From positions 13,025,962 through 13,089,961 of the forward strand of contig NC_134034.1 of assembly GCF_964204645.1 (NCBI RefSeq): a stretch of DNA of 64,000 nucleotides, given 5' to 3'. This document shows positions 24,918 to 53,715 of this stretch, piece after piece. The notes under the pieces were generated by a model. It was given only the letters and a program-made list of their open reading frames with translations, ran no database searches and had not been told where the DNA came from. Source of the DNA: Tubulanus polymorphus. Lineage: Eukaryota > Nemertea > Palaeonemertea > Tubulaniformes > Tubulanidae. Numbering within the stretch: position 1 is the stretch's first letter; each line of letters starts with the position of its first letter. The position numbers and the translations under genes were made by a program.

Positions 24918-25122
24918 TTGCGCCGCCTGGTATACACATACGTCACGGTATATCCTCGCGCCGCCTGGCATACACATACGTCACGGTAAATCCTCGCGCC
25001 GCCTGGCATACACATACGTCACGGTAATTCCTCGCGCCGCCTGGCATACATACGTCACGGTATATTTCCTCGCGACGCCTGGCATACACATACGTCACGG
25101 TATATTCCCTCGCGCCGCCTGA
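24918..25122. repeat. 39-bp minisatellite overlapping a GPCR stop codon
   Basis: Five to six units of CTCGCGCCGCCTGGCATACA followed by CATACGTCACGGTATAT-type sequence. The right-most unit is the end of the reading frame of the adjacent receptor, including its stop codon. Confidence 0.9.
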
Positions 25123-26360: not shown

Positions 26361-26931
26361 AAAGAGTAGTTCTTAAGTATTTTTAGACGCCGGGTATTGA
26401 TTCTTACTATAGTCAAAGCGCGTCATCGAATCTTAATCTTAAACGTGTAAAAACTGGTAGACGTCACCACAGTTCGGTATCGCGCTGTATCTGTCTCGTA
26501 TCTCTCGCTGGACTGGTAAATTCTCTACGAGTTACTCAGCGAATTTCGGGGCAATCGGAACAGGGGCTGGTCCGTTTTTGCGATGAATATTGGACTGAGA
26601 AAATGTGGTATATATCGCCAGGCGGGGCACGCGACAATCAGAGGCAATCAATGACGCTCAGTATGTAGGCGATAACGGTTGTAGATATTTCGATGTCGCC
26701 ACTGCGCGAATTATGGCGATTTCTGGTATAAAATCCAAAGGGAAAATTTATAGTTGACGAATCGATATCGTTAACAACAATTTGCTCTACAATTATTACG
26801 GTAGAGAAAGATTTATGAATGACGTTAACTCCGAAAAGGTATAAATTCCACGTGGAAGGTTTATAATCGTCGATATTCTCCCTGCACATTCCATCTCTCT
26901 TCCGCGACTCGGCTATTCTTCTACCGGCCTA

Positions 26932-32181: not shown

Positions 32182-32554
32182 GCGCACGGTACATGCGAAA
32201 TAAAGCCACTAGAAATCATAGATTTTCATTAGTGTAAAACAACTGCTGCTCTAGATCGATTAGAATACTCGCCGATATAAAAAAACCCGTCAGGCGACAG
32301 TTGACACAATACACACGCGCACTGAAATACTTATAATAACAATACATGTATTCGCTGCTATTTTCATGATACATAAATAGATAAACGATGTGAGTTGAAT
32401 ATATGGTTATGCATAAACGGGTTCCATAAACGGGTTATTTGAATCTATGTATTTCTCATGATCAAGTATAGGGATTATGTCAAATTACATTGCAACTGCG
32501 CCGAGGCATGCACAGAGATGGCTAAACATTAAAATACCATTGAAGTTTTTTTAT

Positions 32555-32922
32555 TTATCTTGCATACATTATGATATTATAAAAAAATCTAACTGGAAAA
32601 AAGCGGTCACAATCACCACATTTTGACCGATCGGAGCTGGCTTCTTGGACGAAAGGAAGAAATCGTTTCTCCTTGCCTGACGCTGCCAGCGTAACCGCCC
32701 AGATGGAAACGAGTATTACTCTAATAGCAAACTTGGCTAACTGGTCTGAAAAAATGACGAATGAAACAGTTATGGAAATACGGATAAAGATAGCGCGAAA
32801 TCGAATATGAATTTAGTTTTGAAATGACCTCGATTCGTAATTCTTTTCGTATGCAGATCCCGACCCCAATGCAGTAGCAAGTGGGAAAATTGCGGATATT
32901 AAGAAATCTAATACCTACCCAT
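32555..32922 (-). CDS. Small secreted peptide precursor, copy 1 of 8
   Basis: Coding parts 32922-32919 and 32745-32555 give 64 residues. The start exon (32962-32919) has an acceptor TTTCCATAG and a donor GTAGGT directly after ATGG; the main exon follows TTTTTTCAG. A 5' noncoding exon ends at the GTAAGT donor after 33591. The protein begins MDQLAKFAIRVILVSIW, continues to LAASGKEKR (signal peptide, then basic motif), and has a variable tail with a CGDC pair. The frame across the junction and the shared layout with seven other copies support it. It is probably secreted. Processing after KR is inference, and function is unknown. The tail differs from copy 2 through indels, including 26 bases present here and absent there. 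Confidence 0.6.
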
Positions 32923-33017
32923 TGATTACGACCAAGATGAACGGAATGAATTGAAGTGAATCCTATGGAAATGAAATACAACATTGTTATCAAAATCTAT
33001 TTTCATTCCTTCATATT

Positions 33018-33098
33018 CTGGACCCAGTTCCACAGTTGTGAGTTAGAGTTAACTCTGAGTTAAAGCTAGTTCATTGCTCGGAACTGTGGAACTGGACC
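33018..33098. mobile_element. Internally deleted M1 MITE
   Basis: CTGGACCCAGTTCCACAGTT and its inverted end GAACTGTGGAACTGGACCC are present, but about 30 inner bases seen in the copy at 34869-34978 are missing. Confidence 0.75.
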
Positions 33099-33574
33099 CT
33101 GTAGCTGACATCCGACGAAAATTCAACAAATATAGATATTTAAGGATACACAATTATTGATACCTTGTTTCTCCTTTTTGGGTCTGAGCTTAAAAGTTAG
33201 CCTAACCGGCCGTCTATCTATAACTACGTAAATTACTTGTTTTTTAAATCATGATCAAGCTTACAATAACAGACCCGACAGTTATAGAAATGAACTGATT
33301 ACAAATTTTATTGGAGTTTATTTACAAAAGTGACCCGGCCGATCAGGAAAAACAATGTATCATTTCCTTAGCCTAACAAGTTTGATATGTATCTAGGACG
33401 CTATTAAACGTCAAGTTTTAGTTAGCGTGAGGAATGAGGTTTTCATCCAACTTTGACTGCTAACGCCATCATTGATTACACAATATTCACCAGAACACTT
33501 TGGAATGGCGATCGACTTCGTGTTCAGGACTTCACTGAGACAATTTTTGAATGAACTTCATCAGGCATAGTGTA

Positions 33575-33660
33575 ACGTATAATAACTTACTGCGGGTTGT
33601 CCTGCGAGGTTCCTCGGTTGTTCCTTGTGATCCGATCACTGGAATTAGTGAACTATACGT
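33575..33660 (-). other. 5' noncoding exon region of peptide gene copy 1
   Basis: Minus strand: a conserved CCGAGGAACCTCGCAGGAC block followed by the donor GCA/GTAAGT after 33591. The same block precedes every peptide copy (36850, 39170, 40600, 42200, 44930 and 48170 regions). The transcription start is not defined. Confidence 0.5.
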
Positions 33661-34427
33661 AATGAGAACTAACTATGTATGGGAACTATACAAAGCACTT
33701 CGAAAACGAGACATTATCGATCATCCGATTCATGAAGATGAATTTTTGTCGGAGTCAAATTTCAGTTACCAGAGAGTGCAGAGTGCACGATCGATCACGT
33801 GCCGTATGATATCTGATATGATATTTCTCAATTCTGAATTTGTTCAATAGAATATTCTATCATTATTTGTCTATCATCTAATATAACACATAGGTGAGTC
33901 TTCTGGATCTATCATCATTCTAAAACTACATTGGAATAAGTTTTACCCAGAAACGGGCTCTCTGGTACCACATTTTGGGCCAGCCATTACCACGTGGTCT
34001 CTCAAGCGGTACCATACTAGTTGGATATGGAAAAATGCATCCGAGTCTTACATTATGATTGAATACATGGTTGGAAGATGTAGGTAAATTGGAAAACTGC
34101 CGGGTAAAAAAGAAAAGGAAAGCATCTGATTGGCTAGACGAATAGACTGGTGGCCGCTGAGTGGCATCTTGTCCGGGCGCAACCTGAGGCGGCGTAATAG
34201 ACCAACGAGGGGAGGAGTCTGCGGCCAGGGTTCGGCCATGATACATAAATAGATAAACGATGTGAGTTGAATATATGGTTATACATGAAGCGAGTTCCAT
34301 AAACGGGTTATTTGAATCTACGTATTTCTCATGATCAAGTATAGGGATTATGTCAAATTACATTGCAACTGCGCCGAGGCATGCACAGAGATGGCTAAAC
34401 GTTAAAATACCATTGAAGTTTTTTTAT

Positions 34428-34773
34428 TTATATTGGATACATTATGACATTATAAAAAAATACCACATTTTGACCGATCGGAGCTGGCTTCTGCAGGCCG
34501 AAAGGAAGAAATCGTTTCTCCTTGCCTGACGCTGCCAGCGTAACCGCCCAGATGGAAACCAGTATTACTCTAATAGCAAACTTGGCTAACTGGTCTGAAA
34601 AAAATGACGAATGAAACAGTTATGGAAATACGGATTAAGATAGCGCGAAATTGAATATGAATTTAGTTTTGAAATGATCTCGATTCGTAATTCTTTTCGT
34701 ATGCAGATCCCCGACCCCAATGCAGTAGCAAGTGGGAAAATTGCGGATATTAAGAAATCTAATACCTACCCAT
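34428..34773 (-). CDS. Small secreted peptide precursor, copy 2 of 8
   Basis: Coding parts 34773-34770 and 34594-34428 give 56 residues. Through the signal region and KEKRFLPF the predicted protein is identical to copy 1. It then switches to GLQKPAPIGQNVVFFYN because of small indels and lacks the CGDC pair. The start exon is 34813-34770 and the noncoding exon ends at 35478. The copy lies in unit 2 of the 1.9-kb tandem duplication, so the two genes separated recently. Function is unknown; a secreted peptide is the best inference. Confidence 0.6.
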
Positions 34774-34868
34774 TGATTACGACCAAGATGAACGGAATGA
34801 ATTGAAGTGAATCCTATGGAAATGAAATACAACATTGTTATCAAAATCTATTTTCATTCCTTCATATT

Positions 34869-34978
34869 CTGGACCCAGTTCCACAGTTGTGAGTTAGAGT
34901 TAACTCTGAGTTAAAGCTAGTTCATTTTCGATGAGTTAACTCGGAGTTAAATCTTAACTCGGAACTGTGGAACTGGAC
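34869..34978. mobile_element. M1 MITE, full-length copy
   Basis: CCAGTTCCACAGTTGTGAGT left end with matching inverted right end AACTCGGAACTGTGGAACTGG and inner GAGTTAAC repeats, in the first intron of peptide gene copy 2. Confidence 0.8.
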
Positions 34979-36703
34979 CCTGTAGCTGACATCCGACGAA
35001 AAGTCAACAAATATAGATATTTAAGGATACACAATTATTGATACCTTGTTTCTCCTTTTTGGGTCTGAGCTTAAAAGTTAGCCTAGCTGGCCCGTCTATC
35101 TATAACTACGTAAATTACTTGTTTTTTAAATCATGATCAAGCTTACAATAACAGACCCGACAGTTATAGAAATGAACTGATTACAAATTTTATTGGAGTT
35201 TATTTACAAAAGTGACCCGGCCGATCAGGAAAAACAATGTATCATTTCCTTAGCCTAATAAGTTTGATATGTATCTACTAGGACGCTATTAAACGTCAAG
35301 TTTTAGTTAGCGTGAGGAATGAGGTTTTCATCCAACTTTGACTGCTATAGCGCTATCATAAATTACACAATATTCACCAGAACACTTTGGAATGGCGATC
35401 GACTTCGTATTCAGGACTTCACTGAGACAATTTTTGAATGAACTTCATCAGGCGTAGTGTAACGTATAATAACTTACTGCGGGTTGTCCTGCGAGGTTCC
35501 TCGGTTGTTCCTTGTGATCCGATCACTGGAATTAGTGAACTATACGTAATGAGAACTAACTATGTATGGGAACTATACGAAGCACTTCGAAAACGAGACG
35601 TTATTGATCATCCGATTCGTGAAGATGATTTTTTGTCGGAGTCAAATTTCAGTTACCAGAGTGCAGAGTGCACGATCGATCACGTGCCGTATGATATCTG
35701 ATATGATATTTCTCAATTCTGAATTTGTTCAATAGAATATTCTATCATCATTTGTCTATCATCTAATATAACATATAGGTGAGTCTTCTGGATCTATCAT
35801 CATTCTAAAACTACATTGGAATAAGTTTTACCTCGAAACGGGCTCTCTGGTACCACATTTTGGGCCGGCCATAACCACGGGTCTCCCAGGCGGTACCATA
35901 CTAGTTGGATATGGTAAAATGCATCTAAGTCTAACATTATGATTGAATACATGGTTGGAAGATGTAGGTTAATTGGATAACTGCCGGGTAAAAAAAAAGG
36001 AACGCATCTGATTGGCTAGACGAATAGACTGGTGGCCGCTGAGTGGCATCTTGTCCGGGCGCAACCTTGGGCGGCGTTATAGACCAACGAGGGGGGAGGG
36101 GGGGGTCTGCGGCCAGGGTTTGTGTTCGCATTAGCATTGGCATGCCCGGTCAACTGGAGTTAACTGATCAAATTGTGACAACTGGTCAACTCCAGATATT
36201 TGCTCGCGTTCAAAAGTCCGCTTATGGTTCCGTGCAAAAATCATTTACTGGAAACAAAGTCTATGTAGTACGTATCTTAAAGAGAAACGTTTTTCAAAAT
36301 AGTATTTATTACTCTACCAGAGTATGCAAGTGCTGGAGGTTGATATAAATAATTACACACATTTAGGAATGCTCGTTCGCGCCGCAAAGTGCTGTCTAAA
36401 AGCCCTGAGAGTCCTCTAACGAAATCCGTCTGAAAATATGCAACAAAATATGTTTGTCGATGCCTCTTTCGTCTCACCAGCCCTCTGAGACAATTGACAG
36501 AATTGAGAAATATATATACGATACTGGTTACTGAAATTCGTGCTCGAAAAATCATCTTCGTATTTGATAATAGCGAATTCACTTTCACGCGTTAACCATA
36601 GTTAGATTTATGGAGAGTTATCGATCTACACTCTAGTCCATCCACCCATCAGGTAATTGAGAAATAAATATATATCAAATATCATTCCGGAATCGTGTAC
36701 TTC

Positions 36704-36782
36704 ACACTCGGGTAAATGAAATTTGAAGCCGAAATCGATTTATGAAGATGATTTCGGCTTCAAATTTCATTTACCCGAGTGT
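36704..36782. repeat. Perfect 33-bp palindrome upstream of peptide copy 3
   Basis: Two perfect 33-base arms (36704-36736 and 36750-36782, starting ACACTCGGGTAAATG) are separated by 13 bases. A single arm of similar sequence lies upstream of the other copies (for example near 40715-40745), so here a promoter-proximal stretch has become an inverted duplication. Confidence 0.9.
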
Positions 36783-36983
36783 ACGGGTATAGATATCTCA
36801 TTATACTTTCACTAATCGCATTGAACGGATCGCCGCCGCGCACAGAAGCCGAGGAACCTCGCAAGACCGAACCGTAAGACCACCTTTTTGGCTGTTGTGA
36901 TTTATACTTTTCATCGAAAATGTCTCTGAACATCGTCTGGACGTTCGCTATTTTAGAGTGTTTTCATAAATTGTAAATTCTTT

Positions 36984-36984
36984 G

Positions 36985-37015
<31 letters not shown>

Positions 37016-37041
37016 TGCGAGCATGCGTGCGTGTGTGCGTG
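36984..37041. repeat. GT/GCGT microsatellite
   Basis: An alternating TG and TGCG run in the first intron of peptide copy 3. Confidence 0.9.
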
Positions 37042-37117
37042 TTATATATCGAAATTATATAAATTTATCATCATACCTACACGACATATTTGCATATTTA
37101 GATAAGTGAATTTTCGG

Positions 37118-37490
37118 TTAGGGGCCGTCCATAAAATACCTCCACGCTGTAGGGGGGGGGGGGTTGGTTTAGATTTTTTGGACTTTTGTGGACAAGGGGG
37201 AGGGGTTCCTCTGATATGGATGTCCATCTTGAAAGCGACATCGTTCACTAGTTAGCGACATCTTTTGTGGATAGAAGTATAGGTAAAATCACCTATGACT
37301 AGTTACCAGAACTTTACTAGTTATGATAATGATACCATGCATCAAATCTTTATAATGTGTGGAACTTAAGGTCCACTGTCCGTTGGACAAGGGGAGGGGG
37401 TCAAGCTGATATGGATCTTATGTGGACATAGGGGGAGGGGGTCAGATTTTCCATACTTATGTGTGGACGTCTTTTATTGACAGCCCCTTA
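37118..37490. mobile_element. MITE with TTAGGGGCCGTCCATAAA ends
   Basis: Left end TTAGGGGCCGTCCATAAAAT and right end (reverse complement) TAAGGGGCTGTCAATAAAAG form inverted repeats of roughly 30 bases. A TTA duplication at the borders is possible. The interior holds repeated TGTGGACAAGGGGGAGG motifs. Similar ends are common in animal genomes. Confidence 0.65.
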
Positions 37491-37599
37491 AGTGTCAGTC
37501 ACAAGGACTACGTAAACTTGAATAACAATGTTGTATTGTATTTCATTTCCAGGCTTCACATCTTCTCATTCCCGTACATTTAGTGTCTCATCAAAGAAA

Positions 37600-38220
37600 A
37601 TGAGTAAGTTAAGTATTGTGTTTATCTTTCTAATCGTCCAGGGGCCAGTTGCTGAAAAGTTGGTTAGAGTTAGTCAGCGGATAGATGACATAGTGACAAT
37701 TGAAATATCATTGTTGCTATGATATTCATTCGTCGGTTATCATTAACCAATTTTTGGGGCCAGTTGCACAGTCGAGACTTAAGTCAAAATGTGGTCTTAA
37801 ATCTTAAGAGTGGTCTTAACTTGTTAGATTGGCTATAGAACTTAGTTGGTCTTAGTCTGGTCTTAAGTCTAAGCCATGACTATGCAACCGGCCCCTGAAG
37901 TTTTAATTGATTTGATTTCATTAAGTTCTATATTCTGAAATAATAAGGATGAAATGTCCGCTATTTTACCGCGCGTTTGAGTAGGGCGACCGTGCAGTTG
38001 GTCATGTGACGTGTACAAAAAGACGAGCTGAGCAGTTTCAAATGAAACTTTTAATATATTGACTTTACTGATTTTTCTTTCCTTTTTAGGCTGGTTAGCC
38101 AAAGTCGCTATAAGTCTTTGCGCAATATTCATATCCATCTGGGTGACGCCCGCAACAGGCAAGGAAAAACGGTTGTTCCCTAATAATTTGCCACTGGAAA
38201 CTGAACGGTTCGAAAAATGA
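37600..38220 (+). CDS. Small secreted peptide precursor, copy 3 of 8 (only plus-strand copy)
   Basis: Coding parts 37600-37603 and 38090-38220 give 44 residues. The start exon is 37553-37603 (acceptor TTTCATTTCCAG, donor GTAAGT directly after ATGA). The main exon follows CTTTCCTTTTTAG. A noncoding exon with GAGGAACCTCGC ends at 36873. The protein starts MSWLAKVAISLCAIFIS, runs to GKEKR, and has the short tail LFPNNLPLETERFEK. Downstream sequence (TCAAATAACCCATTAAATAA, about 38309) matches the 3' flank of the other copies, so the whole transcription unit was copied and inverted. Two MITEs, M2 and M3, sit in its second intron. It is predicted to be secreted; function unknown. Confidence 0.65.
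37640..37760. mobile_element. M2 MITE in a peptide gene intron
   Basis: AGGGGCCAGTTGCTGAAAAG at the left and CCAATTTTTGGGGCCAGTTG at the right, with inner TTGGTTAGAGTTA and GGTTATCATTAACC. Its right end is fused to the following M3 element, which may have inserted into it. Confidence 0.65.
37756..37896. mobile_element. M3 MITE (GGGGCCAGTTGCACAG ends)
   Basis: GGGGCCAGTTGCACAGTC at the left mirrors GACTATGCAACCGGCCCC at the right. The interior repeats TCTTAAG and GGTCTTA blocks in both orientations. A truncated relative is at 62693-62805. Confidence 0.75.
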
Positions 38221-38520
38221 TCACTCTCCCTAAATATCAAGATCGCCGCTTTGTGCATACATTCACCTCGCCACAGTTTCCAATACAATTCTCAAAAATA
38301 TACATTCAAATAACCCATTAAATAACTCTTGTTCAATCTGTAACAATGTGTTTAGCGAACAATATTGTATCTATTAAGTTATTAAAAAAGTAATTATCAT
38401 TCCCGTGTATTGTATCGTGTCATCTGTTGACTTGAAGATTTCATATTGGCTAATTAATATTGTAATCGATTTAGCCCAGTCGTTTCAATGAGATTATCTA
38501 GGATTTCTGGTGGCTTTGCT

Positions 38521-38796
38521 TCATATTATGTACTTATGCAGTGAATACGTGGGAGCGATGGTAGATTGCAACCACAAAGAGAAAAGTTTAGCAACTTTAG
38601 CTAACCGGCCTGACGAGGAAAGAAGAATTAGCGAAAATTCTTAAAAAGTTTCATTTGAGAAACTGCTCGATTCGTCATACGTCACATGAACACGGTCTAC
38701 TCAAACGCGCGGTAAAAAAGTGGTCGTTCCATTTTTACAATTTCAGAATATAGAACGCAATGAAATCAAAAATCGATTACAACTTTACTTACTCAT
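38521..38796 (-). CDS. Small secreted peptide precursor, copy 4 of 8 (short, probably decaying)
   Basis: Coding parts 38796-38793 and 38609-38521 give only 30 residues, MSRLAKVAKLFSLWLQ and a short end. The start exon has the usual ATGA/GTAAGT and the main exon the acceptor TTTCCTCGTCAG. The basic KEKR motif is absent, and the donor of the noncoding exon (after 39153) has changed from GTAAGT to GTCAGT. The signal segment is shorter than in the other copies. I read it as a decaying or diverged paralog. Confidence 0.4.
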
Positions 38797-39794
38797 TTTC
38801 TGACGCAGCAAAATGACGCGAGAACGAGTAGGATGTGGAGCCTGGAGATTGAATACGATGTTATCAAAGTCAATGTAATTCTTCATATTCTGTTTTTTAT
38901 ACTGATAACGAATATATTGAAGTTCGATATAGGCTCTTAAAACTACACCCCAAAATTGTGCGATTCCTTAATTGTCATTCGCTAATTTGTCACCTGAAAA
39001 TGAACTGATCAACACTTTGAAATAGACAATTTATTTGACACTCTTTAAAACAGCGACCTCACGTGTGTTCAGAGCTTTGTCATAGACATTTTCTGATTGG
39101 AAATAAACTAAAACAGACATAAGACATAAAGTATCGTCACACATTTACTGACGGTTTTGTCATGCGAGGTTCCTCGGCTGCCGTTCAGTATAAAGTATAC
39201 AAAAATTCATATTGAAAATGAAGCACTTCCGTTGTTCGATCATCGATTCATAAGAATGATTTTTTGGATACAAATTTCAGTAACCCGATTGCAGAATACA
39301 CGATCGCCTGGTACGATATACGATAAGTATCATTCTGTATGACGCGTAATTTCTCTTATTTCACAACAGCAGTGAACTGAACATAACCAGGCTCATAACT
39401 CCCAGTCACAGTCAAGGCGGTTGATATAAATGATTTGACATTTAGGAATGCTATTTAACACGACCCGATCGCCACCGAAAAGGCGACGCTATGAAATATG
39501 TACTGTGAAATAAAAACAATTCCTAGGTTCTCGTTAAGAAGACGTAGATCTTCGCTAGATCGAGTTAAATAGCCGATACAAAAATACCCCAGAGTCAACA
39601 GGCGATACAATATTTACACTGGAATTTCAGACACCTTTATTCGTTATTATAACATATAGATACAGAATGATCGCTAAATACATTGTTACGCATGGAACAA
39701 GTTATTTAATGGGTTATTTGAATCTATATCTTAAATAACTAAAAATTCAGGGCGAGTTATCGATTTTTAACTTGTTGAGAATTCGCTGCCGAAA

Positions 39795-40223
39795 TTATAG
39801 GACCGATCCTCTTTTCCTTACGGTGAGTGGCATCGCCCAGCCGGCTGCGAGCGGCATCACCCAGATGCAAACGAATATTGCGCAGACATTTATAGCGACT
39901 TTGGCTAACCAGCCTAAAAAAGGAAATAAGAATGAGTGAAAATACTATCAAAAATTCGTTTGAGAAACTGCTCAGTTTGTCATTTTGTGCACGTCACATG
40001 AACAGCACGAGCTGTAGTCTATCTTCAGTACTTTATCGAACTGTTAATCCAATGATGTATTTGTTCCACATTGCGGACTAATTAAGTTAATCTGAATTCG
40101 AATTTGGTAAAAAGCGAACATTTCATCTTTACTATTTATAATGGAACTTAATGGAATCAAATTATGTTTATTGAAATTTTTGGCCGAGTAGAGAATAAAA
40201 AACCAAACATTCGACTTACTCAT
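39795..40223 (-). CDS. Small secreted peptide precursor, copy 5 of 8
   Basis: Coding parts 40223-40220 and 39913-39795 give 40 residues. The start exon is a 21-base micro-exon (40240-40220) between TTATTTCAG and GTAAGT. The noncoding exon ends at 40584. The protein starts MSWLAKVAINVCAIFVC and reaches LAAGWAMPLTVRKRGSVL. An internal duplication of about 18 bases (GATGCC...GGCGATGCC) sits where other copies encode AAGKEKR, so the basic site reads VRKR. Likely secreted; the tail is very short. Confidence 0.55.
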
Positions 40224-41194
40224 TTTCTGTGATAACACTCCTGAAATAACGCGGGTATGAATAGGAATTGGAAGCCTGGAAATGGAATACAATGCGAAGA
40301 TGTCATCAAGATCGATGTCGTAATTCTTCATATTCTGTTGCTTATACTTAACAAATAATGAATATGTTGAAGTTCGATATAGGCTCGTGAAAATGTGCCC
40401 AGAATTGTGAGATTTTTTTGTTGAAAGATGACTAATCAACACTTTGAAATAGACATTTCTTGAACACACGTTAAAATATCGTCCCTTTCCTCTAGAGGCT
40501 TCATTAAGTGTTCACAGCTTTATCGGATACATTTTCGATTGAAAATGAACTACAAGACATTCGACTTATTCACATTTGCTTACGGTTTTGTTCCTGCGAG
40601 GTTCCTCGGCTGTTAAAGGCGTTCACTACGATCAGTGAAAGTATGATGGGAAATTCATATCGAAAAACAAAGCACTTCGGTAACGAGACATTGTTTAATC
40701 ATCGATTCGTGAAGTTGATTTTTTCGGATTCAAATTTCAGTTGAAAAAACGCGAATGCAGACGGCACGATCACGTGGCTTGATCGATAAAACACTCGAGA
40801 TCCGGCGAGACCAGAGTGCTGAGTACACGTAGCATGATATCTGATATTTCTGAATTTGTTCAATAAAACACTAAAAATTCTATGCTATCGTCTAAAAACA
40901 TACGTGAGTCGTCTGGATATATCTGCATTCTGAAACTGCATTGGAAGTTTTATTTTTCAGCTACATAGGAACAAGGGTTTTCGGTACAACATCCTTAGGC
41001 CGGCCGCCCCCCCCCCCCCCCATGATCTCCTGTTCCGTACCACAGTTGATGTAGGTTTTCCTGTAATATTTACCGAATGAAACTGTTCTCGAAGAAATCA
41101 ATCATTAATGATAACTAAGCCGATATCTGAATAGGCAAAATGAATTAAATTTATATTTGGCAGGATGACAATCTATAGCATTCAGGACCAGTTA

Positions 41195-41636
41195 TCATTT
41201 TCTGACACGTTGGGAATTCACTGACGGAATGATAGAAAAGATCCTTTTTTCTTTGCCCGCTGCGTGCGTCGTCACCCAGATGGAGATGAATATTGCGCAG
41301 ACATTTATAGCGACTTTGGCTAACCAGCCTAAAAAAGGAAATAAGAATGAGTGAAAATACTATCAAAGTTTCGTTTGAGAAACTGCTCAGTTTGTCAGTT
41401 TGTGCACGTCACATGGACAGCACGAGCTGGAGTCTATATTCTGTACTTTATCGAGCTGTTTATCCAATGATGTATTTGTTCCACATTGCGGACCAAGAAA
41501 GTTGATTTGAATTTGAATTTGGTAAAAAGTGAACATTTCATCTTCACTATTTATTATGGAACTTAATGAAATCAAATTATATCAATTAAAACCTTTGACC
41601 GATTACAAGAAAACACCAAATATTTCACTTACTCAT
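41195..41636 (-). CDS. Small secreted peptide precursor, copy 6 of 8
   Basis: Coding parts 41636-41633 and 41328-41195 give 45 residues. The start exon is again a 21-base micro-exon (41653-41633), and the noncoding exon ends at 42186. The protein reads MSWLAKVAINVCAIFIS, then HAAGKEKR, then the tail IFSIIPSVNSQRVRK. The signal region is nearly identical to copies 3 and 5, while the tails share nothing obvious. A tRNA-derived SINE lies in its first intron. Predicted secreted; function unknown. Confidence 0.62.
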
Positions 41637-41915
41637 TTTCTGTGATAACACTCCTGAAATAACGCGGGAATGAATAGGAATTGTAAGCCTGGAATAAATG
41701 GAATACAATGCGAAGATGTCATCAAGATCGATGTCGTAATTCTTCATGTTCTGTTGCTTATACTTAACAAATAATGAATATGTTGAAGTTCGATATAGGC
41801 TCGTGAGAATGTGCCCAGTGAGATTTCTTATTTGAAAAGACAACAATCAACACTTTGAAATAAAATAGACACTTTATGAACACACGTTGAAATACCGCCC
41901 CGTACAGAGGCTTCA

Positions 41916-42096
41916 ACCCGCTTAGCGCCACGCAGGGCATTATAAGTGGGTTCGATGCTTCTTTTTCCCAATGGGGGAGAGACCAGAGAAGAACCTTCGA
42001 CCAAGGAACTCTGTCGCCACCAGGGTTTGAACCCATAAACCCTGGATTGACGAGACCAGTGACCGGCGGCCTCAACCACGCGGCCACTGCGCGTCG
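41916..42096 (-). mobile_element. tRNA-derived SINE with target-site duplication
   Basis: On the minus strand the element starts with an A-box-like GTGGCCGCGTGGTTGAGG, then a B box GGTTCAAACCC, and ends in a non-tRNA tail with TGGCGCTAAGCGGGTTGAA. It is flanked by the 9-bp direct repeat GAGGCTTCA (41907-41915 and 42097-42105). Paralogous sequence near 40497 shows the uninterrupted site. Confidence 0.8.
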
Positions 42097-42229
42097 GAGG
42101 CTTCATCGAGTGTTCAGAGCTTCATCAGAGACATTTTCAATTGAAAATGAACTTCAAGACATTCGACTTATTCACATTTACTTACGGTTGTGTCCTGCGA
42201 GGTTCTGCGGCTGCTGTGTGTGATCCGTT

Positions 42230-43288
42230 CACAGCGATTCGTGAAAGTACATAATGAGAAATTCATATCGAAAACGAAGCACTTCGGAAGTTAGATCATC
42301 GATTCATGCAGTTGATTTTTTTGGTATCATGTCATGATATCTATTTCTCAATTCTGAATTTGATCGATAAAACATCCGAGATCCGTTTCGGATTACGTGC
42401 CTATCTATTACATAAGTATGATATCTGATATTTCTGAAAACTGAATTTGTTCGATAAAACACTTACAATTCTATCATCCATTATAACATACGTGAGTCGT
42501 CTGGATCATCTGCATTCTGTTTAGTTTCTGAATTGTTGTCCTTATCGAAATCATGATGTCATAAGCAATAATTGAAGCTAAGCTTTAAATGATACTGTTG
42601 ATATTACCTGTTTTATATAGTATCAGCATATAATTGATGAGTAAACTATGTGTGAGAATATGTAAAGAAATGGTTCTAGCAAGGAAATTTAAGCTAAAAA
42701 CGTTACGTATACCACGGGTCTAAAATCGTATCGATGTGGATTATCTTGTAATAATTTACTGAATGAAACTTTTCCTGGGATAAATCAGTCATTCATGGAA
42801 ATTATATCGATATCTGGAGTAGAAAAATGAATCAATTTTTTATTCGACAGGTCCTGTGATGATATATGGATTCGGGAGTCGAAAAATCCCGATCTAATTT
42901 TGACAACGTATAAAACCAACACGGCTTATCACGTCATCACGATGTGAATTGCTCACGATACCAGTTACACGGTGATTTCGACGCTTATAGTTTATCAAAA
43001 TGTCATCAAGTAGAACCAGCCTATAAAAGGCTCGCAAAACACAATGTTTCATACAAATATAACATACTCATGTCACCGTTACCTCGTAAGGACGCCCTTT
43101 CAATATAGATGCAAACATATTCAATTGTTTTTCGTTAGAATTTGAGTTACTACCTCGGTACTTGAGAGGGATGTTATATCAACAGTTAATATATCTTCAA
43201 GTCATTTCTTAAATCAGTACAGTAAGAACAGTATACGAAATGCAGCCACTAGAAATCCTAGATTCTCATTAAAACGACTGAGCTAAAT
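42230..43288. other. Spacer in the peptide cluster
   Basis: AT-rich sequence upstream of copy 6 and downstream of the 3.2-kb duplication. Fragments resemble promoter parts of other copies. No intact gene is seen. Confidence 0.4.
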
Positions 43289-43429
43289 CGTTTGTCGCTT
43301 CGTCTTTTGGCTTACTCTGGTCGCTTTAGACAACGGATTCTACAAAGTCTCATTTCATTTTCAGACGAAGTCCCACCATGAGCCCTGGCGAACTTTGGCG
43401 CGCTATATGGTTGACTAGGAAAATCCTGC

Positions 43430-43515
43430 TTAGCTTGCCTCGAGTATTACCATCCAGATGGAAGCAAGTAATACACTGATATGCAGAGTAACTTTGACCG
43501 ACGATTTACCGGCAT
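43430..43515 (-). pseudogene. Decayed peptide-family exon, unit 1
   Basis: The minus strand reads a diverged signal segment SVKVTLHISVLLASIW and LEAS, then a stop where the other copies continue GKEKR. The expected acceptor CAG has become CGG. A frame upstream of it (RMRERILSHIFDEF) stays open but has no clear start. Confidence 0.5.
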
Positions 43516-44024
43516 TGCCGAAAAAATACCGAAACTGCCCTTTACGAAATTCATCGAAAATATGTGACAGAATACGTTCGCGCATGCGCCTCGTCTCGTG
43601 ATCTACTCTCTGGGGAAAATCGTGGTCGAGACCAATAAAAAACTGCTCCTACGATACCACGGTGTGATTTGACATATGTACGCTTTTAAACACGTACCGT
43701 TTATAATTGTATGAAATAAAGCCACAAGAAATCCTAGGATCCCCATTGAAACGACTGGGCTAAATCAATTCGAATCCTAGCCAATATTAAACCTTCAAGA
43801 CAATAGTCGACAAAATATATGCACTGGAATGACAATTACTTTATTCTTTGTTATAACATATAGATACAATTACATCGTTACAGATAGAACAAGATGTTTA
43901 TTGGGTTATTTGAATCTATGTCTTATAAACAAAATTGTATCGCAAACTATGAAGGTAAGCAGTGGTGGCTAATTTACATTAGTATAGCCAATCTAACACT
44001 GTTTAGAAAGAGTTATCATTATGC

Positions 44025-44509
44025 TTAGCCTCGACTCATGACATAACGTCGCAAATAGTTAGAAAAAAAAAACCTATCAAAACGCTTTTCCTTGCCTGCT
44101 GCGAGCGTCACAAACCAGAGGAAAATAAGGAATATCGCGTTAAATTGTGCGGCAAATTTGGTTAACTGTCCTGAAAAGGAAAGAAAATACTACAAGTAGA
44201 TTCATAGAAATAGGATGTCAGAATTTCATTTTGAAATGCTACCGATACGGGACACATAAGCAAAGATACTGCTCATTACGCCCATCCCGTATATGCGCTT
44301 AAAACGATTAAGAGAATTGACAGTGAAAACTGGATTTACTTCATTTTACACGCAAAAACTATATGATAAGATACAGACAGTTTAACGATTAACAAATACA
44401 ATCTATAGATGAAATACGTTCAGCAATTATACATGAATTTCCTATATATCCTCCCCTACTATACTACTCCATATAAGCAAAAACGACTAAATATGTACTT
44501 ACCAAACAT
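44025..44509 (-). CDS. Small secreted peptide precursor, copy 7 of 8
   Basis: Coding parts 44509-44503 and 44170-44025 give 50 residues. The start exon (44516-44503) contributes MFG before the donor GTAAGT; the main exon follows CTTTTCAG. The noncoding exon ends at 44917, with a TATA box upstream. The protein starts MFGQLTKFAAQFNAIFLIF, reaches TLAAGKEKR, and has the tail FDRFFFSNYLRRYVMSRG, rich in aromatic and basic residues. An AATAAA signal follows near 43850 (minus). Predicted secreted; a free C-terminal peptide after KR is inference. Confidence 0.65.
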
Positions 44510-44982
44510 TTTACCTCTGGTAAGACACCCGAAAAGTGAGTCGAATATGGCGAATTGAGGCCTAGGAAGAAAGATAATACAACATTGTATTCAAAGTCTA
44601 TAATACTCCTTCATATTCTATGACTGACACTTCTCAAAAAACACAGTTATCATTCACGTATACGACTCATAAATGTATCAAAGCTTGATATATAGCTAGG
44701 ATTGTGAGTGATGTTTTCACCATCGGAGTTAGATAATTTTGCAATTTCCAATTTGACATTGTTTATTGAAAATGAACTTCGAACAGCATTAAATAGACAT
44801 TTCATGTACACACTTTAAAACAGCGACTAGCGTTCACAGCTTCATCAGAGACATTTTCAATTGGAGATAAACTAAAACAGACATTCTACCTAAAGTATCA
44901 GCGGACATTTACTTACGGATTTGTACTGCGAGGTTCCTCGGCTGCTGCGCGCGATCCGTTCACTGCAATCGAATTATGAGAA

Positions 44983-44989
44983 CTTTATA
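44983..44989 (-). promoter_or_regulatory. TATA box of peptide copy 7
   Basis: TATAAAG on the minus strand within TTTTTCAATATAAAGTTCTC, about 66 bases upstream of the first splice donor. Confidence 0.5.
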
Positions 44990-45099
44990 TTGAAAAACGA
45001 AGCACTTCGGAAACGAGACATTGTTTGATCATCGATTCGTGAAGTTGATTTCAATCGGATTCGAATTTCTGTTAGCCGAGTGCAGAGTGCACGACCACG

Positions 45100-46530
45100 T
45101 AAAGTATGATATACGATATTTCTCAATTCTGAATTTGATCAATAAAACACATATAATTCTATAACCTATTATTACATGAATCATCTACATTCAACATTCT
45201 AAAACTGTAATGGAAGTTTTATTCTAAGCTACACAAAGCATAAACACGTTTTTCGTTGCCATATTTTGGACCGGCCACTATCCCCAGATCTTCCGACCGG
45301 TTCCACAAGTCTTAAATAAAGTAAAACTGATTTGAGGTTAGATATCTTGTAATAGTTGAATGCAGGGGTGGACTATGAAAATTGGAAGACTGCCGGGGTC
45401 TGAAAGACGATCGAGTAAGGACCTGACACGGATAAAGCAGCCATGTTGAAGGTATGGCAGACTGAGGTTGTGTAATCGGGATTAGACATCACTGAAGCCG
45501 CTCCATCCGACGAAGAGATGCAGTTTCCGACAGAATCAGTTTGAAATATATTTATTTTAACAAACTCTGTTTTAATGAAAATGGCATCTCCAAAATCGCT
45601 CCGTATAGCTGCCCCTGGAATTATAGACCATTCTCATATTTTACCATTCTTCGGCTGGCAAATTCTGCTAAGATTATGGTTATTGTGGAGCTAGGGTTAA
45701 GGATATGGCTGCCCAATGAGTAGCAACTGAAGCTGTGGTTGGGACTTATTCTTGGGCTGGTGGCGTGTTTTTGGTAGCTCGAAGTTCTTGGTGATTGATG
45801 AGCCTGGCCATAGGGTTAGTGAGTTGACTGGTCACCATCTGTGAGTGGATTTATCGATTACAATTTTCCAATCAGTTAATTCCCCGGCGCCTGGTTCAGG
45901 TCGAAAACGCACTTCCGTATAATTTTTTCAGTAATAAGAAAATAAGTAACAAAACGTTTTCTCAGAAATTCTTATCAGTGATTATGCTGAAAGATTTTCG
46001 AAAACTTTCATCCAAAAGAATAGCAAATGTCTTCTTGTCTCACAGGCATCAGAGTCGGGTTATTTTCTAAGGTCTTAATTATGCCTCATTGAACTGAGTG
46101 AAATCACTGAGTAAAATCGGATCCCGCCTCGCTTGCCATAGTCTATTATCAAGCCGCTGTTCCTTGAACAAGTAGTGGTAAATGTAACTTAGTCGAATAC
46201 GCGGGCGGACCTAGGAAAATTGGAAGACCGCCGCGTTCAGAGAGAAAAGGAAGGTCATTACTCAAAAGCCGCCAAGCCGAAAGGTAGCAGAAACCTATCA
46301 TCGGGTTAAGACATCTAGTTTTCTAAGATCGGTATAAGATAACAGATTAAGTCAGGATCAACCGACCCAACTGACTGAGGATAGAACCGTTTAATTCGTA
46401 CATGAAAAAAAAAACCAAATGTGAAGAGGATTGTTTTTGAAAAGCCGCGATCGCACGAGCTGCTACTGATAAAGTGAGATATCCTTACCTTGATTAACGT
46501 TACCATCACTACGACTACCATCACAACATT
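45100..46530. other. Spacer in the peptide cluster
   Basis: Upstream flank of copy 7. Most of it is duplicated at 48340-49432. Open frames are short and unconvincing. Confidence 0.4.
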
Positions 46531-46675
46531 TTTGTCGCTTCGTCTTTTGGCTTACTCTGGTCGCTTTAGACAACGGATTCTACAAAGTCTCATTTCATTT
46601 TCAGACGAAGTCCCACCATGAGCCCTGGCGAACTTTGGCGCGCGATATGGTTGACTAGGAAAATCCTGCTTTTCC

Positions 46676-46757
46676 TTAGCTTGCCTCGAGTATTACCATC
46701 CAGATGGAAGCAAGTAATACACTGATATGCAGAGTAACTTTGACCGACGATTTACCG
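46676..46757 (-). pseudogene. Decayed peptide-family exon, unit 2
   Basis: Same diverged signal segment as in unit 1, again ending LEAS and stop. Five extra bases (TTTCC, plus strand) restore part of the GGAAAAG sequence after the stop that unit 1 lacks. Confidence 0.5.
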
Positions 46758-47265
46758 GCATTGCCGAAAAAATACCGAAACTGCCCTTTACGAAATTCAT
46801 CGAAAATATGTGACAGAATACGTTCGCGCATGCGCCTCGTCTCGTGATCTACTCTCTGGGGAAAATCGTGGTCGAGACCAATAAAAAACTGCTCCTACCA
46901 CGGTGTGATTTGACATATGTACGCTTTTAAACACGTACCGTTTATAATTGTATGAAATAAAGCCACAAGAAATCATAGGATACCCATTGAAACGACTGGG
47001 CTAAATCAATTCGAATCCTAGCCAATATTAAACCTTCAAGACAATAGTCGACAAAATATATGCACTGGAATGACAATTACTTTATTTTTTGTTATAACAT
47101 ATAGATACAATTACATCGTTACAGATAGAACAAGATGTTTATTGGGTTATTTGAATCTATGTCTTATAAACAAAATTGTATCGCAAACTATGAAGGTAAG
47201 CAGTGGTGGCTAATTTACATTATTACAGCCAATCTAACACTGTTTAGAAAGAGTTATCATTATGC

Positions 47266-47750
47266 TTAGCCTCGACTCATGAAAAAACGTTGAAAAAAGT
47301 TAGAAAAAAAAAACCTATCAAAACGCTTTTCCTTGCCTGCTGCGAGCGTCACAAACCAGAGGAAAATAAGGAATATCGCGTTAAATTGTGCGGCAAATTT
47401 GGTTAACTGTCCTGAAAAGGAAAGAAAATACTACAAGTAGATTCATAGAAATAGGATGTCAGAATTTCATTTTGAAATACTACCGATACGGGACACATAA
47501 GCAAAGATACTGCTCATTACGCCCATCCCGTATATGCGCTTAAAACGATTAAGAGAATTGACAGTGAAAACTGGATTTACTTCATTTTACACGCAAAAAC
47601 TATATGATAAAATACAGACAGTTTAACGATTAACAAATACAATCTATAGATGAAATACGTTCAGCAATTATACATGAATTTCCTATATATCCTCCCCTAC
47701 TATACTACTCCATATAACCAAAAACGACTAAATATGTACTTACCAAACAT
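47266..47750 (-). CDS. Small secreted peptide precursor, copy 8 of 8
   Basis: Coding parts 47750-47744 and 47411-47266 give 50 residues. The signal and KEKR regions are identical to copy 7. The tail reads FFFSNFFQRFFMSRG where copy 7 has FFFSNYLRRYVMSRG. The acceptor of the start exon has changed from CCAG to CCAA, so splicing probably uses the AAG two bases on, which affects only the leader. The noncoding exon ends at 48159. Confidence 0.63.
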
Positions 47751-48224
47751 TTTACCTTTGGTAAGACACCCGTAAAGTGAGTCGAATATGGCGAATTGAG
47801 GCCTAGGAAGAAAGATAATACAACATTGTATTCAAAGTCTATAATACTCCTTCATATTCTATGACTGACACTTCTCAAAAAACATCAGTTATCATTCACG
47901 TATACGACTCATAAATGTATCAAAGCTTGATATATAGCTAGGATTGTGAGTGATGTTTTCACCATCGGAGTTAGATAATTTTGCAATTTCCAATTTGACA
48001 TTGTTTATTGAAAATGAACTTCGAACAGCATTAAATAGACATTTCATGTACACACTTTAAAACAGCGACTAGCGTTCACAGCTTCATCAGAGACATTTTC
48101 AATTGGAGATAAACTAAAACAGACATTCTACCTAAAGTATCAGCGGACATTTACTTACGGTTTTGTACTGCGAGGTTCCTCGGCTGCTGCGCGTGGTCCG
48201 TTCACTGCAATCGAATTATGAGAA

Positions 48225-48231
48225 CTTTATA
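48225..48231 (-). promoter_or_regulatory. TATA box of peptide copy 8
   Basis: TATAAAG on the minus strand, at the position equivalent to the one of copy 7. Confidence 0.5.
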
Positions 48232-49595
48232 TCGAAAAACGAAGCACTTCGGAAACGAGACATTGTTTGATCATCGATTCGTGAAGTTGATTTCAATCGG
48301 ATTCGAATTTCTGTTAGCCGAGTGCAGAGTGCACGACCACGTAAAGTATGATATACGATATTTCTCAATTCTGAATTTGATCAATAAAACACATATAATT
48401 CTATAACCTATTATTACATGAATCATCTACATCCTAAATTCTAAAACTGTAATGGAAGTTTTATTCTAAGCTACACAAAGCATAAACACGTTTTTCGTTG
48501 CCATATTTTGGACCGGCCACTATCCCCAGATCTTCCGACCGGTTCCACAAGTCTTAAATAAAGTAAAACTGATTTGAGGTTAGATATCTTGTAATAGTTG
48601 AATGCAGGGGTGGACTATGAATATTGGAAGACTGCCGGGGTCTGAAAGACCGAGTAAGGACCTGACACGGATAAAGCAGCCATGTTGAAGGTATGGCAGA
48701 CTGAGGTTGTGTAATCGGGATTCAGACATCACTGAAGCCGCTCCATCCGACGAAGAGATGCAGTTTCCGACAGAATCAGTTTGAAATATATTTATTTTAA
48801 CAAACTCTGAAATGAAAAGGGCATCTTCAAATCGCTCCGTATAGCTGCCCCTGGAATTATAGACCATTCTCATATTTTACCATTCTTCGGCTGGCAAACC
48901 GAATTCTTCTGCTAAGATTATGGTTATTGTGGAGCTAGGGTTAAGGATATGGCTGCCCAATTAGCAACTGAAGCTGTGGTTGGGACTTATTCTTGGGCCG
49001 GTGGCGTGTTTTTGGTAGCTCGAAGTTCCTGGTGATTGATGAGCCTGGTATAGGATTAGTGAGTTGAATGGTCACCATCTGTGAGTGGATTTCGATCGAT
49101 TACAATTTTTCCAATCAGTTTTAATTCCCCGGCGCCTGGTTCAGGTCGAAAACGCACTTCCGTATAATTTTTTCAGTAATAAGAAAATAAGTAACAAAAC
49201 GTTTTCTCAGAAATTCTTATCAGTGATTATGCTGAAAGATTTTCGAAAACTTTCATCCAAAAGAATAGCAAATGTCTTCTTGTCTCACAGGCATCAGAGT
49301 CGGGTTATTTTCTAAGGTCTTAATTATGCCTCATTGAACTGAGTGAAATCACTGAGTGAAATCGGATCCCGCCTCGCTTGCTATAGTCTATTATCAAGCC
49401 GCTGTTCCTTGAACAAGTACTGGTAAATGTAAGAAGGTCTGGTATTCAGACTTCGCTTGCCATGGCACGATGCCGCTGCCGTTAAAGCCACATCCTTTGG
49501 CAAGCGAGTATGACTAATATACGTTCCGACGCGTAACTTTCGGTTCTTAGTACGACCGGGTCGCGCTAGCTTCGATTGAGTCATAACTAGCGAAG

Positions 49596-52500
49596 ATGGC
49601 GGAAGAAAGCGCCGATCGAGTTCAATTGGCGAACGGTAATTACAACTCTACAGGTCAGTGATTATCAATTTACCGAATTTATTTTCATTCGGAGTTTATC
49701 GTCGAACGTCGAGAAAAATTTCCGCTCCGAAATCGCTTTGGAACCCGGAGTTTCCGATGAGAGAACGAAGTATTAGCTTAGTCTGTGTCTACTCCTTCCG
49801 AATATGATTTTTAGCTAATTAGTCGAATTCTTCGATGATTACCCGTTGATAATTTTACCCTTTTCTTCCCGACCCGTTCCTGAATCATTCGAGTACCTAA
49901 ATCTTAGAAATTAATGCCTAAACGTCCTGAGACTTTCAGGGGCGGACAATGAATGGGAATGCCTCATCATTCATGGGAGGGTCCGCCTCCCGACCATCCC
50001 AAAAAAGTCAAGATGCCCTGAAATTTCACGGGAAAATATAAATGATGGATTGATATCTAAAAATGTTGACATTCATAAGCTTGTTCTCTATATTTTCAAA
50101 AGTGAGTTAATATTTTCCGGAGCGAGGTTGCTTTCAGGGTGCCATTTTAATTGATCCCCTATTTTGGGGGGGTTTTACCCTCCCTGATTCGAACCCTAGA
50201 TCCGCCCCTGATAATCAGGCCTAATTACTGAGTGTCATGATATACAAGATCAAAACTGAATCCTGGTTGCTGACTACAATGCAATGCGGTCGATTATTTA
50301 AGTCGTACAGTCCACAGTGTAGTCCGATTACTGACTAAAAACTACGGTCCAGTTACTGACTGAATGATAGTCTGGCTACTGACTAAATTCAATGTCTCTA
50401 GGTTACTGACTCCTGCTTGTTCTAAAGTGCCGTCTCCTATGATACATGTTTCTTTGATTCAGTTGTTTAGAATATGTAGTGGCCAGTCACCCCCCCCCCA
50501 AAAAAAAAAAAATCAAGTGGCTATTCATACGGACACGTATGGATTACTCTGGAATTATTCGTAGGGTTAGGGTTAGGGTAAGGTGAGGCTATATGTAGTT
50601 AAAACATTCGATCGACTGTCAGCGAGCTCGATGGTCTAGTGGTATGATGCTGCGCTAGTAATTTACTGGCGCGGGTTCCAGTCTCGCTCGATCCGCTATT
50701 TTTCTCTAACTATATTCTCCGCGCTTTCCTTGAATTTTCTAAGTCGCGCACCTCTGTACGCATGCGTGGCGTCCAATCAGCGACAGTTATTAGCGTACAG
50801 ATCCTAGTTCCGTACGAGTAGCCTCCTGAGTAATCCCCGTACGGGTAGCTTCCAGAGTAATCCCCGTACGGGTCTGTACGGGTAGGTTCCAGAGTAATCC
50901 CCGTACGAGTAGCCTCCAGAGTAATCCCCGTACCGGTAGCCTCCAGAGTAATCCCCATACGGGTAGCCTCCAGAGTGATCCCCGTACGGGTAGCCACAGC
51001 GTTTAGAATATTATTGATTCTCAGGTTTCAGGAAGGATAGAAAGAGAAATTTTAATGGTAAGTCTCGAAATGTGTTATGGATGATTTTTATTTTGCCATT
51101 AGATCAAACGGATTGATTATTTTTATTTGTTCATTTGTTTGCTTGAACATTTTCATTTACGTTATTTAGTTTAGTTTTGGAGGTTTTTTGTTTTGGATGT
51201 GTTTCATTTCATCTTAATTGCACGTTGTTTATCATAGAATTTTCATATTTGATCTTTTAACGCAATAATTGTAAAACATTAAGAGCTTTGAAATCTGTAG
51301 ATAGCATAGAGACACATCCTATTCAAACCAGGAAGCTGACAGAGTCATGATGTTACCGGGTTCAAATTCCTGTCTGACTCTCATGATGTCAAATCCCTGT
51401 GAGGGAGGATGTGTCTACTAGGACAGGTGTTTGTACTGTGACAGAGTCTCATGATGTCATCAGGTTCAAATCCCTGTGAGGGAGGATGTGTCTAGTAGGA
51501 CAGGGGTTTGTACTGTGACAGAGTCTCATGATGTCATCAGGTTCAAATCCCTGTGAGGGAGGATGTGTCTACTAGGACAGGGGTTTGTACTGTGACAGAG
51601 TCTCATAATGTCATCAGGTTCAAATCCCTGTGAGGGAGGATGTGTCTACTAGGACAGGGGTTTGTACTGTGACAGAGTCTCGTGATGTCATCAGGTTCAA
51701 ATCCCTGTGAGGGAGGATGTGTCTACTAGGACAGTGGTTTGTACTGTGACAGAGTCTCGTGATGTCATCAGGTTCAAATCCCTGTGAGGGAGGATGTGTC
51801 TACTAGGACAGTGGTTTGTACTGTGACAGAGTCTCGTGATGTCATCAGGTTTAAATCCCTGTGAGGGAGGATGTGTCTACTAGGGCAGGGGTTTGTACTG
51901 TGACAGAGTCTCGTGATGTCATCAGGTTCAAATCCCTGTGAGGGAGGATGTGTCTAGTAGGACAGGGGTTTGTACTGTGACAGAGTCTCATGGATGTCAT
52001 CAGGTTCAAATCCCTGTGAGGGAGGATGTGTCTAGTAGGACAGGGGTTTGTACTGTGACAGAGTCTCACGATGTCATCAGGTTCAAATCCCTGTGAGGGA
52101 GGATGTGTCTACTAGGACAGGGGTTTGTACTGTGACAGAGTCTCGCGATGTCATCAGGTTCAAATCCCTGTGAGGGAGGATGTGTCTACTAGGACAGGGG
52201 TTTGTACTGTGACAGAGTCTCGTGATGTCATCAGGTTCAAATCCCTGTGAGGGAGGATGTGTCTACTAGGACAGGGGTTTGTACTGTGACAGAGTCTCGT
52301 GATGTCATCAGGTTCAAATCCTTGTGAGGGAGGATGTGTCTACTAGGACAGTGGTTTGTACTGTGACAGAGTCTCGTGATGTCATCAGGTTCAAATCCTT
52401 GTGAGGGAGGATGTGTCTACTAGGACAGGGGTTTGTACTGTGCCAGAGTCTCGTGATGTCATCAGGTTCAAATCCCTGTGAGGGAGGATGTGTCTACTAG

Positions 52501-53715
52501 GACAGGGGTTTTATCCTGATGAATAACCCTAACAGCCACAAGTTGATGATTGGGTTTGATATAATGAATTGTGATTATTTCATGACTGGGTGTACGTACT
52601 TGAATGTGAATCATCATCAGGTGTTTGAATTAACTATTGATTCAACGTTTTTCAAGTTGTGCGTATATGTAACCTCAATTTAAAGTACTTATGTCACGGG
52701 TTTGTTTGACTGCCAGGAAACGTCAAGTGCGTGTGTGTAATAAATCAGCGTCCCTTGGTTGCTTATAAACTGCTAAACAGAAAATGATTTTAAAGCTGCT
52801 TGAATTTGAGTAAATTGCCCGAAACACTTTCAATTTTGAGAATTAGGCTATTATAAGAAATCTTTTAAATCAGACTGCGCCTAAGTCGGTACAGTTAGGA
52901 CCGGGATATTTTTTTCGTTATAAGGTGGTTACTGAATTGAAAAAACCGAGTTTAGGTCGTGTAAGGGATAAAACTGTGCTCACAAAACCACCGAATTACT
53001 GGTTCGGCACTGATTTTATTATAGTTAACCTAGTACAGCTTAATCAGGATGATTCAGTTCACAGACCGAGTAAGGACGATGTACTTAACAGTTTCATACC
53101 GGAATTAGTCTCGGATAAAAAATGTTTCTGATCCAAAAATACTGGTAAATTGACATAATATATTAGACGCGGTATATTGTCAGTGATGTATTTATAGCCT
53201 GATGCTGAGTGGAGCTTGTCGATTTGATTCTAGTGCTTCTGATGCATTGTAAACGAAAGACTTGCTGTCATTTCTCATGTATAGAGGGAATGCGCAATTT
53301 TTCGCAGTGATAAATTTAAGGATATTCCTATAGAACTAATATGGAAAATACATTAAACTACGAGTTGACAGGTAGGATTTGTTCATGAATTTGATCAGTT
53401 TAAAGGGATGTATTTGTCAGGTGGGGGGTGAACCGATGATCGGAGACAATAGATTCCCGGGGGGGAAGGGGGGATAAACGGAGTCTACTGCGGATGCATA
53501 AAGAACAATTCAAAGATATTCGATATAATTCTTAAGCGTTCGTTCAGACACAGCTGTTGCTGTACGGGATGATGTTCTCTTATTCGATACCGTATTTCAT
53601 GAACGTCAAATCCGCGACATATGTTACACGTATTGTAAAACATGAAATGGCGTCCAATCCTGGTAAGGAGGCGATTTAACATTATCTCTTTTTCACTGTT
53701 CTACTAATGCCTTCA

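Follow-up and report, generated by a model that had tools for sequence, protein, structure and literature searches.

The 64,000-nucleotide window analysed here, positions 13025962-13089961 of contig NC_134034.1 (C10 below) of the nemertean Tubulanus polymorphus, carries eight loci of the same design, g1 to g8, in the stretch from 32.4 to 49.4 kb; seven are on the minus strand and one (g3) is on the plus strand. The assembly comprises 267.8 Mb in 77 contigs, 12 of them of chromosome size (C12 has 11.5 Mb, C13 0.24 Mb). In each copy a noncoding exon 1 and a short exon 2 precede a main exon with an open frame, which a phase-1 intron sets off from exon 2. Comparison with the rest of the genome makes it likely that the eight loci form a divergent branch, expanded by tandem duplication, of a large superfamily that is specific to the lineage and encodes secreted prepropeptides. 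A first-pass annotation of the window had proposed eight loci with a shared three-exon plan, and all eight were found. The coding part of exon 2 is ATG plus one base in g1-g6 and ATG plus four in g7 and g8, followed by a GT donor. The annotation was right about this coding part but not in calling the exon one of only ATG plus one to four bases, as its full size is 44-59 bases (with acceptors as selected). The intron behind it is in phase 1 and, as had been predicted for every copy, the reading frame stays open across the junction in all eight window genes.

The main exon encodes a hydrophobic segment, followed in six of the eight genes by GKEKR and a tail, in line with its earlier description as the usual motif; GKEKR is missing from g4 and g5, in the latter because of a 20-nt length difference relative to g6. 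Frame, start codon, GT/AG splice sites and KEKR are all retained in g1-g3 and g6-g8. The g1 product reads MDQLAKFAIRVILVSIWAVTLAASGKEKR and then a tail with one C..C, the window tails being otherwise cysteine-free, with KEKR as their basic site. The signal of g2 is the same as that of g1, and its tail is read in a different frame. Peak hydropathy is 1.36 in g4 vs. 2.5-2.8 in the remaining window genes; g4 also has a GTCAG donor behind exon 1, and its entire product is 30 amino acids long. The 3' element, which the annotation had described as shared, is complete in g1, g7 and g8 and partial in g2, g3 and g5, but a search of all eight loci did not find it in g4 and g6.

The exon-1 motif GAGGAACCTCGC is present in 7/8 loci, with an altered form in g6 (42208), just as the annotation had it. 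The 267.8 Mb contain five exact copies of a 16-mer, GCCGAGGAACCTCGCA, always within the cluster (g3, g4, g5, g7 and g8), and none of its reversed control. In an ungapped comparison of the diverged copies g2, g3, g4, g5 and g7, invariant columns number 15/16 in the core vs. 3/119 in the flanks. The 16 bases of the exon-1 core (window 33591-48184) form a near-palindrome, CGAGGAACCTCG. Blocks at 43.3-46.2 kb and 46.5-49.4 kb are identical at 99-100%, and those at 32.4-34.2 kb and 34.2-36.1 kb at 92-100%. The copies are therefore tandem duplicates, and the recent pairs are g1/g2, g5/g6 and g7/g8.

A genome-wide superfamily of predicted prepropeptide genes

Protein searches of the same genome yielded 52 distinct loci outside the window, so 60 altogether. 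The outside loci sit on C2, C4, C5, C6, C7, C8, C9, C10 and C12 and on the small contigs C25 and C55, and family members are present on 9 of the 12 chromosome-size contigs. The searches scored the best candidates only, the weakest loci having a best E of about 0.1, and all 52 loci were read as main exon; additional loci may exist beyond the 60. This superfamily of some 60 loci is apparently undescribed so far. C7 alone holds 18 loci, nine of them inside about 28 kb (3.137-3.166 Mb). A further copy, L022, lies 9 Mb off the window and has all three exons, with ATA replacing ATG and a different tail. Broken or doubtful members are L066, with an in-exon stop, and L063 and L086, on long branches; a match at C9:9201174 (E 0.81) with two in-frame stops was left out of the count. 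On C8, four near-identical members (2427852, 2605870, 3601124 and 3814154) are spread across 1.4 Mb, which points either to a recent duplication over long range or to an effect of the assembly.

The link between the window and these loci was followed in both directions. A profile of 39 outside members was run against 2131 window open reading frames (ORFs) with 20 or more residues and 2131 reversed decoys. Seven of the eight window exons took ranks 1-7, headed by g3, the window gene with the strongest superfamily link (E 2.8e-6), and followed by g6 (7.6e-5), g2 (1.9e-4) and g1 (2.5e-4), with the first decoy at 0.92. The reverse profile, built from six window genes and run against the ORFs of 30 outside loci, placed 12 loci at E<0.001, with the first decoy at 1.8. 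The exon plan points the same way: 21/31 outside loci have ATG, one to four bases and GTAAGT within 1.5 kb upstream, vs. 0.76 expected from Markov-resampled sequence. The window exon-1 core has no close match on the gene strand upstream of 20 outside loci, where the best candidates have 4-6 mismatches in 14, like shuffled sequence. An 8-mer upstream of exon 2, CACGTAAG, is common to 7 of 11 groups (it was selected as the commonest 8-mer, with no shuffled control) and may be the exon-1 donor of the outside genes. A tree of 53 rows and 52 columns covers 46/52 outside loci and seven of the eight window genes, without g4; L065, L066, L070, L071, L088 and L089 were omitted as near-copies or broken. 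In this tree L022 groups with the window genes in a single clade (95/95), many other forks being unresolved.

The gene plan, the homology of some 60 loci, the conserved signal segment and a conserved RxxR or KR site are read directly from the sequence, as is a cysteine pair in most outside members examined. The outside members can be read as prepropeptides, with a hydrophobic signal, a pro-region, a furin-type RxxR and a short tail; L032, for which the Met exon was located, would be divided as MIGDMFKFVVPLCGIFVSIWAMAAA / DEEKEKELSADALLERLIR / GPPDCGGTGCSG at the predicted cut positions. AxA-like candidate signal sites occur, under a permissive rule, in all 31 of the outside rows that were tested. 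An RxxR lies ahead of the first cysteine of the tail in 34/39 outside members, and it is present in the pro-region of 29/30 of the main set vs. a shuffle mean of 6.7 and maximum of 16. Exactly two tail cysteines are found in 29/39 members, with the first two spaced by 3-7 residues, and a C-terminal Gly in 8/39. The putative mature tails (n=40; 29 of the main 30 plus 11 others) have a median length of 13 residues (range 8-26), and their net charge is -1 to +1 in 28 and +2 or more in eight. In several DQ... members on C9 and C12 the KR cut comes straight after the signal, at the same place as the window GKEKR. The tree does not unite this group with the window clade, so the common KR position may be convergent. 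The window clade lacks the common outside type, a two-cysteine tail behind RxxR, and has probably lost the ring (the tree is unrooted). Judged from these comparisons, descent places the window cluster in the superfamily, but outside its ring-peptide type.

In an intact gene a noncoding exon 1 is followed by an exon 2 that ends shortly behind the start codon. Across a phase-1 intron lies the main exon, which supplies the remainder of the predicted signal peptide together with a short pro-region and the putative mature peptide. Transcription would be followed by removal of the signal peptide and by furin or prohormone-convertase cleavage at RxxR or KEKR; one disulfide ring would close, and amidation would take place where a C-terminal Gly is encoded. 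Short peptides of 8-26 residues, mostly near-neutral, would be released as extracellular ligands, most likely exocrine or signalling peptides that serve recognition or take part in an arms race. For the window clade, the predicted product is a linear peptide of 15-35 residues after KEKR.

Tail evolution and competing explanations

The first-pass annotation had taken the cluster for rapidly diversifying secreted peptides. Fourteen pairs were compared, and five of them (g7/g8, L034/L037, L040/L041, L055/L058 and L057/L059) were pooled. Nonsynonymous changes amount to 26.3 in 165.0 sites of the tail vs. 6.0 in 446.9 sites before the tail (Fisher 6e-11), or 0.159 vs. 0.013 per nonsynonymous site. 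Tail replacement also exceeds synonymous change, which is 5.7/171 (p 1.3e-4). An excess of tail replacement is thus directly seen in some close pairs. In g7/g8, five replacements and no silent change fall in the 54-nt tail, against a difference of 0.9% within 1500 columns (p 1.3e-4), and a permutation for any five changes within 16 columns gives 0.00045. The prepro-region is constrained at longer distance, with nonsynonymous (pN) and synonymous (pS) differences of 0.062 and 0.316 in g3/g6 and of 0.031 and 0.296 in L031/L032, and the signal plus KEKR has 0 replacements in g1/g2 and in g7/g8. Prepro constraint is unclear in the five close pairs taken alone (p 0.10), and in L033/L035 and L043/L044 replacements exceed silent changes in the prepro-region as well. 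Together with the signal, cleavage-site and cysteine-pair features of the superfamily, the tail results fit the annotation's proposal. Its support appears stronger than the window alone could give, because the cluster has turned out to be a single branch of a superfamily found across the genome. The family probably consists of lineage-specific, conotoxin-like, hypervariable peptides. More tentatively, it could be a new superfamily of at least 50 hypervariable, mostly single-disulfide secreted peptides. Each would be encoded, behind a Met-only coding exon, by an all-in-one cassette exon that holds signal, pro-region, furin site and mature peptide. Together they would make up an exocrine repertoire of a combinatorial kind, used as pheromones, for recognition or in a venom-like way, in which the window clade switched to linear peptides.

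A number of observations weigh against this interpretation. Some concern membership: g5 (E 0.13), g7 (0.72) and g8 (0.81) have weak individual links to the outside members, yet above every decoy, and g4 is absent from the forward-profile list of window ORFs. In the reverse profile, an unrelated L039 ORF at E 0.045 outranks some true members. The count of 21 upstream matches is inflated by near-copies among the 31 loci, and the L050 match lacks the usual ATGAT form. The combination of hydropathy and a small-residue rule used for signals is permissive, and even g4 passes. From their sequences, g4, g5 and L022 (start codon ATA) seem non-functional. Other points concern the tails. The five pooled pairs were picked after the table was seen, and the alignment of the L040/L041 tails contains gaps; a clear tail excess is lacking in L033/L035 and L052/L054, and there is almost none in L057/L059. 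The five g7-to-g8 changes are toward A or T and could be a single mutational event. Frame-shifting indels separate the g1/g2 tails and the g5/g6 tails, and the tail in the window cluster may therefore be weakly constrained. Relaxed constraint is a serious alternative to selection for change inside the window cluster.

Taken further, the window clade could be a decaying side branch with an inherited signal exon and tails without a selected peptide, the cluster being maintained by duplication. This would account for the absence of the cysteine ring from all window copies bar the C..C of g1, for the indels just mentioned and for the damage in g4, g5 and L022. We nevertheless consider it rather unlikely, given the lack of replacements in signal and KEKR in g1/g2 and g7/g8, the excess of pS (0.32) over pN (0.06) in g3/g6, the six remaining copies with frame, start, GT/AG sites and KEKR intact, and an exon-1 core in which 15/16 columns are invariant in five copies. 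A role in host defence, as antimicrobial peptides with a conserved prepro-region and a hypervariable effector like those of myticalins or frog skin, is likewise doubtful. The layout and the multigene diversification are the same, and some window tails are cationic (g6 +3, g7 +3 and g8 +2). Typical defence peptides are cationic, however, unlike most outside tails, of which 28/40 carry -1 to +1 and only eight +2 or more. A further point for a defence role is that myticalin genes, too, begin with a noncoding exon and have a phase-1 intron (PMC5577615). Uncleaved single-pass membrane microproteins, with a functional hydrophobic segment and tails free to vary, would explain why conservation inside the window is limited to that segment and GKEKR, but are improbable in view of the outside RxxR (34/39) and cysteine pair (29/39), the candidate AxA-like sites (permissive rule) and the pooled tails, in which replacements outpace synonymous change, a result that free drift would not yield.

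If the proposed superfamily of diversifying prepropeptides is expressed, it would offer a new library of tiny natural peptides, some cyclic and some linear, and recent duplicates such as g7/g8 and L034/L037 would let diversification be followed stepwise. A Met-only coding exon joined to one cassette exon would be a simple plan for testing the origin and spread of hypervariable peptide families.

Coordinates and surroundings of the cluster

Table 1. Window positions of the eight loci and their exons.
Gene	Span	Strand	Exon 1, 3' part	Exon 2	Exon 3	Remark
g1	32555..33618	-	33618-33591	32962-32919 (ATG+G)	32745-32555	
g2	34428..35505	-	35505-35478	34813-34770	34594-34428	
g3	36848..38220	+	36848-36873	37553-37603 (ATG+A)	38090-38220	
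g4	38521..39178	-		38841-38793	38609-38521	degenerate copy
g5	39795..40610	-		40275-40220	39913-39795	copy without GKEKR
g6	41195..42211	-		41688-41633	41328-41195	altered exon-1 motif; GKEKR present
g7	44025..44942	-		44561-44503 (ATG+4)	44170-44025	
g8	47266..48184	-		47802-47744	47411-47266	recent g7 duplicate

The annotation had also allowed for the main exon being part of a known repeat or noncoding RNA; this was looked at and rejected, as Rfam and tRNA scans of the window each gave 0 matches. A DNA query of 32366-33600, with exon 1 largely outside it, gave dispersed matches which, among the best 40 of 2638 candidates, fall on the intron (query 652-1027, window about 33017-33392) and not on exons 2 and 3 of g1. 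This g1 intron (window 33017-33392) contains dispersed repeats, with at least 40 matches elsewhere in the genome. Elsewhere in the window lie a rhodopsin-type G-protein-coupled receptor (GPCR) gene at 25095-26372 on the minus strand (7tm_1, E 1e-17), an Srw-type GPCR gene at 10549-11595 on the plus strand (E 9.5e-11) and a 7tm_1 fragment slightly below cut-off at 12880-13242 on the minus strand. Tandem arrays at 51389-52511 (14.6 copies) and 58468-59183 (9.3 copies) both have a 77-base unit, with differing consensus.

Comparison with known peptide families

A conserved secretion signal joined to a fast-changing peptide is a design best known from venom and defence peptides. The annotation had not recognised the family, and database comparisons agree: for ten precursors, scanned in sets of four and six, no Pfam family scored over the cut-off (DUF6207 was sub-threshold, E 0.075), and the best match of one profile of ten main exons to PDB sequences was at chance level (E 1.7). 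A likeness of GKEKR to NDUFA1, a mitochondrial complex I subunit, was dropped, Pfam having found no family in the window precursors scanned. In the literature collection searched, six signal and pro-region strings had no printed match, and keywords yielded analogues at most. Frog-skin precursors of the dermaseptin type have a conserved signal, an acidic pro-region ending in KR and a hypervariable C-terminal peptide. The present family shares the signal, the KR-ended pro-region and the hypervariable C-terminal peptide, but its outside tails usually have a cysteine pair; any relation in sequence was examined via Pfam only.

The conotoxin superfamilies, including the contryphans, have in common with the present family a conserved signal, a short disulfide peptide and a multigene organisation. 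Conotoxin genes are described in PMC10561478 as having one to six exons, three in most, and a subset (15.78%) of them is reported to be under positive selection. In a contryphan gene the reading frame extends over exons 2-4, with one phase-1 and one phase-2 intron (PMC10501145). Here, by contrast, one exon holds all coding sequence past the Met codon region. Conotoxins were compared via Pfam only, where no family matched.

The genes of myticalins, antimicrobial peptides of mussels, have three exons, of which the first is noncoding, and a phase-1 intron; they too combine a conserved signal with a hypervariable mature part, and their family includes pseudogenes (PMC5577615). The myticalin ATG opens the main exon and the phase-1 intron sits behind the mature part, which is central and cationic and is followed by an anionic C-terminal extension. 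The present family has its intron behind the Met codon region and its mature part at the C-terminus. A central cationic peptide with an anionic extension was not found; the tails are C-terminal and mostly near neutral, and a cysteine pair is common. In its working, the family would resemble conotoxin or defence-peptide families; the likeness is one of design.

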